From positions 1,488,001 to 1,552,000 of the forward strand of contig NZ_CP125854.1 in the NCBI RefSeq assembly GCF_030169785.1: a DNA stretch of 64,000 bases. Reading direction: 5' to 3'. Position 1 is the first letter of the stretch, and each line of letters begins with the position of its first letter. The notes beneath the pieces are model-generated. The model was given only the letters and a program-made list of their open reading frames with translations. It ran no database searches and was not told the DNA's origin. Shown piece by piece: positions 18,300 through 49,408 of this stretch. The DNA is from Bdellovibrio sp. 22V (GTDB taxonomy: Bacteria > Bdellovibrionota > Bdellovibrionia > Bdellovibrionales > Bdellovibrionaceae). A program made the translations under genes and the position numbers.

Positions 18300-20156
18300 G
18301 TGAAACGGATTCTAAAGGGTCTTTTTATTTCAATCAGCTTCGTCAGCGGGTCCGCATGGGCTCAGAATCAACCTAAAGTCGTTGAGGGCGAATACCTTAT
18401 TAAATTTAAAGCCTCTGCGGGGGGATTGGCGGTCGCCCATTCCAAGCTTTCCGGTAAGGCCTCCTTTAAAGGTTCGTTCCCAGGTTTGGGAATCATGCAG
18501 GTTTCTTTGAAAACCGGCGCGGGGGAAAAGGTCAATTACGAAGCTCTTAAAAACGATCCCGACGTCGAGTATATTGAGCCCAACTACATTCTTGAAAAAA
18601 ATGAAGTGGCACCGACAGAACCTGTACAAAGACTCAGTTATGATGAGGTCATTGCTTCAGCTTTTGCCTCGACAAGTCCTAATGATTATTCGCAGTCGTC
18701 TGCGAATGTCGGCGTTGCGGATGCCTGGCCTTTGCAAACTCCTTTAGATCAGCAAGGAAAAGTTGTTGTTGCGATCGTGGATACGGGATTAGACCGTTTT
18801 CATGACGTCTTTAAACCTGTCGCGAATGGTGGGACGGGCGCTCTTTGGGTGAATGAGATTGAAGACAAGGGTCGCCCCGGCGTCGATGACGACCAAAATG
18901 GTTTTGTCGACGACATCAACGGTTGGAACTTTATTAACAACACGAATAACTTTATCGATGACGACGATCACGGAACTCACGTTGCAGGTATCGTCGTGGG
19001 TGCAGGTCTGAATATTTTCGCGGATCCTTTGCCAGAGTCAAAAATCCTCGTTATGCCTTTGAAGTTCTTAGGTGCCGACGGGACGGGCTCTACCGCGAAT
19101 GCGATTCGCGCGATTTATTATGCCGTTAACAATGGCGCACGTGTGATCAATAACTCTTGGGGCGGAGGCAGTTACAGCCAAGGCCTTTTAGATGCATTGG
19201 TTTATGCTTACGATCATCAAGTGTTGATCGTTTCGGCGGCCGGTAACTATGGAAATAACAATGACAGTGTGCCGATGTATCCCGCGAACTATTCTGTTCC
19301 AAGCAATTTGACGGTGGCTTCGGTTACACGCTTTGATGATATTTCCGGTTTCTCGAATTACGGAGCATCTCGTGTGCATATCGGGAGCCCCGGTGAAAGT
19401 ATTTTAAGTACCGTGCCTGGTAATACAACGATGCGCATGTCAGGAACAAGTATGGCGGCTCCGCTTGTTTCGGGTATGGCCGCTTTGGCTTTCCGTGAAG
19501 CTCCGGGGCTTTCGGGTTATCAAATGAAAGAACTGATTCAAGCAACAGGCCGCCAAAGCGGTTGGTTGAACGGCTATATTTCTACGAGTGCTCGTATCGA
19601 TGCTTTGTCATTGATTCAATCCGCGCAACAAATGGTGACGGCAGCGGCGGCTCAGCCGACGTACAAACCTGAGCGCTCGGTCGCTTCGGATGCTGCCGGC
19701 GGCGGAGGCGGTTGCGGTCTTGTGATGGACATCACGAAAAACGGTCCTGGCTCTGGTCAGGGGGGCAATGCGCCGATAGCTATTGTCCTGGGGCTTCTCG
19801 CAATGCCGTTGGTTGTATGGCAAGTGCTGCGTGTGCGCGATCCAAAAAACAAACGCCGTTATGATCGCTTCAAGATGAGTTCAGAAATTCGTGTGATGGT
19901 TGGCGACCGCGAGTTGGTCGGCTCTGTGAATACGATTTCACAAGGTGGTCTGTCATTCAATACGGATCAAGCTCTTGATAAAGGCGGCATCGTTACTATG
20001 CGTATCCAAAGCCCTGACGGTCACGAAGTGATCGAGGTGCAAGGGCAAGTCGTATGGTGCGAGAAAAATCAATCTTACGGAGTTCAGTTTGCCAATGCAA
20101 AACAGGGAACTCTGGCGATGATTCGCGATTGGACGTCAGGCCTTATCAAAACGTAA
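18300..20156 (+). CDS. Subtilisin-like protease with TM segment and C-terminal PilZ domain
   Basis: A 618-residue protein with GTG start and GGAGAA ribosome site. Order: signal peptide (ends SGSAWA), inhibitor-I9-type propeptide (about 25-105), S8 catalytic domain with Asp161 (AIVDTGLD), His224 (DHGTHVAG), Ser384 (SGTSMAAP), a Gly-rich linker with a single Cys (GGGGGCGLV, about 466-474), one TM helix (about 495-515), then a PilZ domain (about 520-615) with RRYDRFK and NTISQGGLSF, the RxxxR and [D/N]xSxxG c-di-GMP-binding motifs. The arrangement predicts a type I membrane protein: protease outside the cytoplasm, c-di-GMP sensor inside. I know of no standard family with this fusion. Control of proteolysis by c-di-GMP is inference. 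Confidence 0.9.
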   Translation: MKRILKGLFISISFVSGSAWAQNQPKVVEGEYLIKFKASAGGLAVAHSKLSGKASFKGSFPGLGIMQVSLKTGAGEKVNYEALKNDPDVEYIEPNYILEKNEVAPTEPVQRLSYDEVIASAFASTSPNDYSQSSANVGVADAWPLQTPLDQQGKVVVAIVDTGLDRFHDVFKPVANGGTGALWVNEIEDKGRPGVDDDQNGFVDDINGWNFINNTNNFIDDDDHGTHVAGIVVGAGLNIFADPLPESKILVMPLKFLGADGTGSTANAIRAIYYAVNNGARVINNSWGGGSYSQGLLDALVYAYDHQVLIVSAAGNYGNNNDSVPMYPANYSVPSNLTVASVTRFDDISGFSNYGASRVHIGSPGESILSTVPGNTTMRMSGTSMAAPLVSGMAALAFREAPGLSGYQMKELIQATGRQSGWLNGYISTSARIDALSLIQSAQQMVTAAAAQPTYKPERSVASDAAGGGGGCGLVMDITKNGPGSGQGGNAPIAIVLGLLAMPLVVWQVLRVRDPKNKRRYDRFKMSSEIRVMVGDRELVGSVNTISQGGLSFNTDQALDKGGIVTMRIQSPDGHEVIEVQGQVVWCEKNQSYGVQFANAKQGTLAMIRDWTSGLIKT

Positions 20157-20180: not shown

Positions 20181-21233
20181 ATGAGTTTGTTCAGCAAAGG
20201 TCTCGTTATTTCTTTTCTCTTTATATCTTCAGCACGAGCGGAGCAGACCTGGAGTCAGGTCTACGAATCCGCTCGACCTGCTATTCCTGTCATTCGCACC
20301 ATGGGCGGGATTTGTTCGGGCGCTTTGATTTCTCCGACCTTAATTCTGACGGCTCAGCATTGTGTGAAGTTTCTTCGCCCGATTACTGTGCAGTGGATAG
20401 AAGGAGACAAAGTCATTTCCCAACAGACAGCCAAGGTGAGCCGCTGGGATCCCCAAAACGATCTTGCCATTCTTGAGCTCGATGTTTCAGTGAAAACAAA
20501 ACCGTTAGTTTTAGCTCCGACAGGTGCGCTTAAAGTCGGAGATGAATTAACAACCATAGGACACCCTTTTGGAATTCGTGGATCCTCTTTGAATTTCGAT
20601 ATGCTTTTTAACTACACGCGCGGCACTGTGACGAAGATAAATTCTGACAAGAATTTTCTTAGTGATATGTCGGTATCGCCAGGAAACTCCGGTGGTCCCG
20701 TTTTAAATAAAGAGGGTCAAGTTGTCGGCGTAGTCTCGCAAAAGAATGTGCATCGTTATGCGGGTAGTATTGCGATGATGGTTCATCCCGATAAAGTCAA
20801 AGCGCTCACGGCGGCGCCGGAGGAGAAAGATAAATCTCTGTTTGAAGGCTCCATGCCCTCGCGGGTGGAAATCGGCGTTAAGAGAGTCTTATTTAACATT
20901 GATACTGCCGAAAAGAGTATCAACGACGGAGTCACCGCTGCCGACCTAAAAATGTATGTTTGGGATCGTCTTATTCTCGGTGTGGATAAATCCTTTTCTT
21001 CTTCCCGTGATGATATGCAATATTCGGGAGAATACATGGGATATGCCTGGTATTTTGAAAGCACCAATTTCTTCCCCCGCTACCTTGCTCTTGGAGTTAA
21101 GTCCGTCAAATTTGAAAAATATGATCGCCATGGCTTCGGAATGATTTTCGCAGATTTTAAATATTTAGAATTGGATGTTGGCTTCACCGGTAAATTCGAC
21201 GAATCCTATATCTCCCTCGGTATCAGCTTCTAG
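20181..21233 (+). CDS. Secreted trypsin-like serine protease (S1 fold, DegP-like core)
   Basis: A 350-residue protein with a signal peptide (ends SSARA). Catalytic triad: His60 (LTAQHC), Asp94 (QNDLAIL), Ser170 (SPGNSGGPV). The core resembles the S1C/DegP type more than digestive trypsins (GHPFGIRGSS, GQVVGVVSQK). It has no PDZ domain; instead there is a unique C-terminal extension of about 140 residues rich in aromatic and acidic residues. It lies 24 nt after the protease-PilZ gene, so the two proteases are probably co-expressed. A palindrome at 21233-21259 likely ends the transcript. Confidence 0.88.
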   Translation: MSLFSKGLVISFLFISSARAEQTWSQVYESARPAIPVIRTMGGICSGALISPTLILTAQHCVKFLRPITVQWIEGDKVISQQTAKVSRWDPQNDLAILELDVSVKTKPLVLAPTGALKVGDELTTIGHPFGIRGSSLNFDMLFNYTRGTVTKINSDKNFLSDMSVSPGNSGGPVLNKEGQVVGVVSQKNVHRYAGSIAMMVHPDKVKALTAAPEEKDKSLFEGSMPSRVEIGVKRVLFNIDTAEKSINDGVTAADLKMYVWDRLILGVDKSFSSSRDDMQYSGEYMGYAWYFESTNFFPRYLALGVKSVKFEKYDRHGFGMIFADFKYLELDVGFTGKFDESYISLGISF

Positions 21234-48733: not shown

Positions 48734-49408
48734 ATGGAAGCAAAATCACCCGCATTAGAACGTCCTCGTGCCGTGCAAATGGCCGCTGCTGTGCTTATGA
48801 TGACACCTGTTTTAGACATCTTGATGATGCAAAGAACGGGCACTCAGGTTTTTAGCTGGATCAGTTGGTTGATGATCTTTGGAGCCGGTGTCAGTTTGTT
48901 GATTCGTCACAAACTCTCGTGGGTGATCGGAATCGGTCTTTGCAGTGTCGTGGTGATCTCGACCGCATATCGTCTTGTCACAACGATGGGAGATATCGAT
49001 CCGGCGGTGAGTGCCGCGATGATGCTGGATTGCATGTTGGTGCTTTTTATTGTGGGCACGGTATCGTACTTCTTCCGTTATCCATATCTGGATCGTCGTC
49101 AAAACTGGTTTGCGCCGACGGGGGATCGTTTTTCCATCTCCACACCTGTGGTTCTGCGCGGAGTTGAAACGCAAACAATCGATCTTTCGTATACGGGAGC
49201 GCGCATTGCTCTTCCTGCTTCGACGGAGCCGTTTAAAACGGGCGAAACCGTGACTTTGCAGCTCTCAGAGATCAACGACATTCAATGCCGCGCGAAGGTG
49301 GTGGAAGTGCGTGACAATCTGGTGCGCGTCCGCTTTGAGGGGACGTCGTCTTCTGAAAAAGACCTGATTCGTCAGTGGCTCAATAGCCAAAATTTGCAAA
49401 AAGTATAG
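48734..49408 (+). CDS. Membrane protein with C-terminal PilZ domain
   Basis: A 224-residue protein. The frame is open from 48644, but that would overlap the divergent gene, so the ATG at 48734 (MEAKSPALERP) is chosen. Four TM helices (about residues 15-125) are followed by a PilZ domain (about 130-220) with DRRQNW and DLSYTGARI (the DxSxxG motif). The RxxxR half of the c-di-GMP motif is imperfect, so binding is uncertain. The fold suggests that c-di-GMP regulates something in the membrane. GCCGATAA, similar to a FliA-type -10 element, occurs just upstream at about 48719. Confidence 0.75.
   Translation: MEAKSPALERPRAVQMAAAVLMMTPVLDILMMQRTGTQVFSWISWLMIFGAGVSLLIRHKLSWVIGIGLCSVVVISTAYRLVTTMGDIDPAVSAAMMLDCMLVLFIVGTVSYFFRYPYLDRRQNWFAPTGDRFSISTPVVLRGVETQTIDLSYTGARIALPASTEPFKTGETVTLQLSEINDIQCRAKVVEVRDNLVRVRFEGTSSSEKDLIRQWLNSQNLQKV

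Follow-up and report, generated by a model that had tools for sequence, protein, structure and literature searches.

Architecture of the S8-PilZ open reading frame

The stretch of DNA that we analyzed (the window, 64,000 nt) belongs to the complete, 3.6-Mb genome of Bdellovibrio sp. 22V, for which the closest named loci come from Bdellovibrio MAGs (73% identity). At 18300..20156 of the window it carries an uninterrupted 618-aa reading frame (P0001), for which orthologues were found and in which a subtilase, a transmembrane (TM) helix and a PilZ domain are fused; this frame and all of the features described within it lie on the + strand. The start codon is GTG, preceded by AGGAG, and a promoter and terminator scan returned about as many matches as shuffled sequence did.

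The sequence-only reading of this locus had described a signal peptide, an intact S8 triad, a TM helix, a PilZ domain with RxxxR and a Gly-rich stretch with a lone Cys, and each of these was recovered. Read from the sequence, residues 1–21 (18300..18362; KR..LFISISFVSGSAWA|Q) form a predicted Sec signal peptide with an A-W-A|Q cleavage site. It is followed by a Fervidolysin_NPro-like prodomain (residues 23–95, 18366..18584; Pfam, 29.0 bits, cut-off 21), which was detected in 52 of 58 scanned orthologues, and by a Peptidase S8 domain (residues 154–417, 18759..19550; PF00082, 170.8 bits, E = 5e-50). As expected of family S8, this domain holds an Asp-His-Ser triad (D161, H224, S384) and an oxyanion Asn (N316), all four of which are invariant in the alignment (110/110 homologues), and the closest structure to it by structure comparison was deseasin MCP-01 (3vv3). 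The lone Cys is Cys472 (codon 19713-19715), within a G-G-C-G-L-V motif (19707..19724) that starts what we refer to below as a CTERM-like module. The TM helix spans residues 491–512 (19770..19835), with Pro503 at its middle and a basic stretch, RVRDPKNKRR, after it, and the PilZ domain (residues 517–611, 19848..20132) is identified both by Pfam and by a fold match to Alg44. In an AlphaFold model of the full-length protein (mean pLDDT 89), the S8 domain and the PilZ barrel were confidently placed, residues 462–471 were of low confidence, residues 473–481 formed a short helix, and the modeled helix 491–512 agreed with the hydrophobic segment of the protein. The sequence is consistent with a topology in which the protease would lie outside the cytoplasm and the PilZ domain inside.

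Distribution and genomic context

The co-occurrence of S8 and PilZ in other genomes, which the sequence-only reading had proposed as a check, was borne out: both domains were present in 57 of 58 scanned orthologues, and full-length or nearly full-length orthologues were found in ~114 of 144 genomes of the class Bdellovibrionia (counted manually from a table of class genomes). Within the family, orthologues with the PilZ domain were found in 57 of 66 genomes, and in the remainder the gene was clipped by contig ends or the assembly was fragmented. Elsewhere in the phylum, the protein matches listed for the other classes spanned the protease and not the PilZ domain. At the genus level, the gene lies next to a divergent DUF502 gene; its other neighbor is, in many genomes, a convergent MgtE gene, and this context is shared across much of the family. 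Because the two domains co-occur in 57 of the 58 scanned orthologues and the gene is syntenic within the family, chance or artefact as the origin of the fusion is excluded.

The neighborhoods of relatives revealed no conserved operon partner. A gene encoding a trypsin-like protease that carries a signal peptide (20181-21233, +), missing from this position in relatives, begins 24 bp downstream in our genome; we rejected it as an operon partner, since it stands between the S8-PilZ gene and MgtE in this genome only, and in relatives whose locus reaches far enough the next gene is MgtE or another gene.

In a tree of the protease domain, the S8-PilZ proteins formed one class-wide lineage. Relatives that lack PilZ but keep the Cys/helix tail were scattered within it (L048, L049, L050, L052 and L054) or basal to it (L051). 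This tree was built quickly and many of its forks are weak, which makes the count of PilZ losses no more than indicative; in addition, some PilZ-less relatives are second copies. We also considered whether PilZ-less homologues are restricted to genomes without c-di-GMP, and rejected this: the genomes in which they occur still have genes for GGDEF and PilZ proteins, and the absence of the domain therefore does not track loss of c-di-GMP. Apart from this, the small genomes G231-G234 and G252-G255 (1.4-2.0 Mb, from one family of the order) had zero PilZ matches, and most of them retain 1-2 GGDEF domains.

The pairing of S8 with PilZ had been called uncommon, which holds, but it is not new. A B. 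bacteriovorus protein with both domains, NP_969350.1, was tabulated in 2008 under the label ‘Signalling’ (PMC2605481), and going by the reported domain pair it is very probably orthologous to the protein described here. As far as the available text of that paper goes, the entry gives the domain combination alone and describes neither a helix or Cys module nor any conservation or mechanism. New relative to that listing are the class-wide conservation, a corrected PilZ motif and the recognition of the Cys/helix stretch as a common module.

The PilZ domain and its putative c-di-GMP site

The PilZ match was strong (PF07238, 66.9 bits, cut-off 22.5, E = 2e-18), and both arginines of the RxxxR motif (R519-R523, 19854..19868) were invariant in 58 orthologues. 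The second motif had been given as NxSxxG. It reads V-N544-T545-I-S547-Q-G-G550, in which Asn544 sits one residue too early, and the site is therefore T545-x-S547-x-x-G550 (19932..19949), with T545 opposite D in the alignment to Alg44. Relative to the (D/N)xSxxG consensus, the Ser and Gly are retained, S547 in 96 of 99 rows of the orthologue alignment and G550 in all 99, and the D/N position is occupied by T (56 of 99 orthologues), S (34), C (5), D (2), N (1) or V (1). The genome encodes 4 GGDEF and 18 PilZ domains, and among its remaining PilZ proteins some have S or E at this position and one has D. A T or S here might weaken c-di-GMP binding, and our literature search on these residues at the D/N position yielded nothing useful. 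Because T or S is found there in most orthologues, we have filed the domain as a PilZ domain and not as a proven c-di-GMP receptor.

Modeled alone (pLDDT 92.6), the domain was closest to c-di-GMP-bound Alg44 (Z = 15.9, rmsd 1.8, 101 residues aligned), followed by MotI, MapZ and YcgR, among others, while XC1028, which represents a PilZ type with trivial c-di-GMP binding, scored Z = 7.0. Given the fold match and most of the site residues, we place the domain in the ligand-binding class by model and motif, with binding itself putative, and we think it likely that c-di-GMP is its ligand. Alg44, which functions in Pseudomonas alginate synthesis and offers the closest solved fold, also unites PilZ with a single TM helix and a periplasmic portion on one chain; unlike the S8-PilZ protein, it has no protease and its PilZ domain is N-terminal. 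A second PilZ domain is encoded elsewhere in the window (49163-49384, +; G000:C1:1537163-1537384; 47.0 bits), in a 256-aa open frame.

A Cys/helix/basic module shared with other exported proteins

Cys472 was present in 107/107 non-gapped homologues, a conservation equal to that of the catalytic triad, and flanking G in 105/107; Pro503 of the helix was likewise invariant in 58 orthologues. The layout of the module is G-G-C-G, about 20 residues, a Pro-containing helix and a basic cluster, and the PilZ-less relatives terminate in this same arrangement of GGCG, helix and basic residues. From 14 such tails we built a profile (A1), which found no second carrier in the Bdellovibrio sp. 22V genome and matched further proteins across the phylum. 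Twenty of these were retrieved, 19 of them not the fusion. In all 19 the Cys is followed by G or A (and preceded by G in 18) and lies 37-62 residues before the stop; after it come a spacer of 12-28 residues, a hydrophobic helix that has a Pro at its center, and 2-7 basic residues. Because the profile itself partly encodes the Cys and the Pro, finding them in these matches is not independent evidence. Three features do not depend on the profile: the tail is C-terminal, the chain stops shortly after the basic cluster, and the proteins have N-terminal signal sequences. The carriers include matrixin-type metalloproteases, an LPMO-like protein, a subtilase from a different lineage (L153), a PorU-like protein of 2551 aa and an fn3 protein. 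The Cys/helix stretch is thus a module common to unrelated exported proteins, and it resembles MYXO-CTERM and GlyGly-CTERM. Probably, then, the S8-PilZ protein is a subtilase whose anchor or sorting signal is CTERM-like and which carries a cytoplasmic PilZ domain in addition.

In plan, the nearest described signal is MYXO-CTERM, which also has an invariant Cys, a TM helix and an Arg-rich cytoplasmic end and occurs on exported proteins, and for which lipidation of the Cys and then cleavage by the CPBP protease MrtX have been proposed (PMC11980579). Our module shares the first three features; it is internal, with PilZ after it, in the fusion, whereas MYXO-CTERM is terminal, as is the module in the PilZ-less relatives. 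The GlyGly-CTERM signal of the rhombosortase system, found on the serine protease VesB, is like the module in its Gly-rich motif, TM helix and basic end. To our knowledge, that signal has no invariant Cys. None of the NCBIfam CTERM models reached its cut-off with the S8-PilZ protein, its tail or the related tails. For MYXO-CTERM (TIGR03901), neither the protein (E up to 1) nor its tail (E up to 10) gave a match, and L150 scored 12.7 bits (cut-off 20); for GlyGly-CTERM (TIGR03501), the tail gave no match and one PilZ-less relative scored 14.2 bits (cut-off 15.5).

Candidate processing enzymes were sought by their distribution, and none was found to be co-distributed with the gene. A CPBP myxosortase was rejected, as the complete Bdellovibrio sp. 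22V genome has no CPBP protein (PF02517) and only 56 of 144 class genomes have one. The best rhomboid of the genome scored 52.4 bits against TIGR03902 (cut-off 84), and the rhombosortase-like rhomboid L137 was rejected as a dedicated sortase, being missing from several fusion-bearing genomes (G024, G027, G028, G030, G031, G033 and G065) and common in families without the fusion. The suggestion that the Cys stretch is a processing or sorting site therefore fared unevenly: a CTERM-like module on unrelated exported proteins makes it the strongest lead, but no processing enzyme was found.

Discussion

The best explanation overall, to which we give slightly less than even weight, is that this is an inner-membrane subtilase whose external protease is controlled by a cytoplasmic, c-di-GMP-binding PilZ domain. 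The signal peptide would export the protein and the prodomain would assist folding of the subtilase; the chain would then halt in the inner membrane at the CTERM-like module, leaving the protease outside and the PilZ domain following the module's cytoplasmic end. Binding of c-di-GMP to PilZ would be passed via the single helix to the protease, and would act either on its activity or assembly while tethered, or at the Cys/helix module, where the protease would be processed and released to be handed over to the outer surface. The tethered protease or its release is most likely what c-di-GMP governs, although for control of the protease by c-di-GMP as such we see the chances as about evenly balanced. 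Inside-out control of this kind had been predicted from the sequence, and it stands as the leading reading, with a compatible topology and most PilZ ligand residues conserved class-wide, but with one motif position that is not canonical.

A precedent exists in LapD, a degenerate GGDEF-EAL receptor, and LapG, a cysteine protease. In that system, cytoplasmic c-di-GMP controls periplasmic proteolysis by inside-out signalling, and the receptor, which spans the membrane, and the periplasmic protease are two proteins (PMC3032545, PMC3032553), whereas here PilZ and a serine protease are joined on one chain. The S8-PilZ protein may thus work like LapD/LapG in principle only.

How the module would take part is where the explanations diverge. 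One possibility, which we regard as unlikely, is that PilZ-bound c-di-GMP gates intramembrane processing of a hitherto undescribed sorting signal made of GGCG, the Pro-containing helix and the basic end, so that the subtilase is either tethered or released or lipid-anchored on the surface of the predator. This would explain the presence of a cytoplasmic sensor on the same chain as a signal of the sorting type; cleavage or lipidation at the Cys module, proposed by analogy with the described signals, is itself rather doubtful. Alternatively, the protein could be an uncleaved receptor-protease in which the module only anchors, c-di-GMP dimerizes or reorients the chain and an intermolecular disulfide at Cys472 stabilizes the dimer, in effect a one-protein LapD/LapG. 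We hold this only tentatively, as a possibility below an even chance by some distance. In 65 of 99 orthologues the exported part contains no Cys besides Cys472, which could there pair only between chains; nearly all orthologues retain PilZ on the protease chain, as would be the case if the connection were important; and the lack of a processing enzyme in our searches fits as well. Against it, the same Cys module ends matrixins, an LPMO-like protein and proteins of around 2500 aa, for which a dimer role need not be common, and Gly-Cys-Gly followed by a helix containing Pro and by basic residues at the end resembles a processing signal.

Both of these take PilZ to sense c-di-GMP. It could instead be a docking domain that does not sense c-di-GMP and positions the protease at a pole or in a complex, a role for which XC1028 shows that PilZ types with trivial binding exist and with which the T or S at the D/N position would agree. 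We judge this improbable, given that RxxxR, S547 and G550 are retained in almost every orthologue of the class and that the fold scores far better against PilZ domains with ligand bound than against the non-binding type. A subtilase that is simply secreted, with PilZ fused to its C-terminus by accident and without any regulatory role, would account for the several homologues that keep the protease without PilZ, but it is highly improbable for a fusion that is ancient and class-wide, with its PilZ site residues intact.

With an external protease joined via a membrane helix to a probable c-di-GMP sensor, the S8-PilZ protein may couple proteolysis outside the cell to a signal within it. If c-di-GMP does control the protease, as the favored explanation has it, one protein would tie the messenger that controls predatory life-style switching in Bdellovibrio directly to extracellular proteolysis.

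The Cys/helix/basic tail, in turn, points to a Bdellovibrionota protein-sorting signal that lies outside all NCBIfam models. In L138-L153 and L155-L157, from this phylum, the C-terminal tail consists of GC[GA]x[VIA], a spacer, a Pro-containing helix and a basic end, and it is apparently an undescribed sorting-type tail. One of these proteins, L153 (L153:1138-2697, −; genome G221), is a distant subtilase on a long branch with the same Cys tail, and because it lies outside the S8-PilZ lineage, subtilases may have acquired the tail on more than one occasion.
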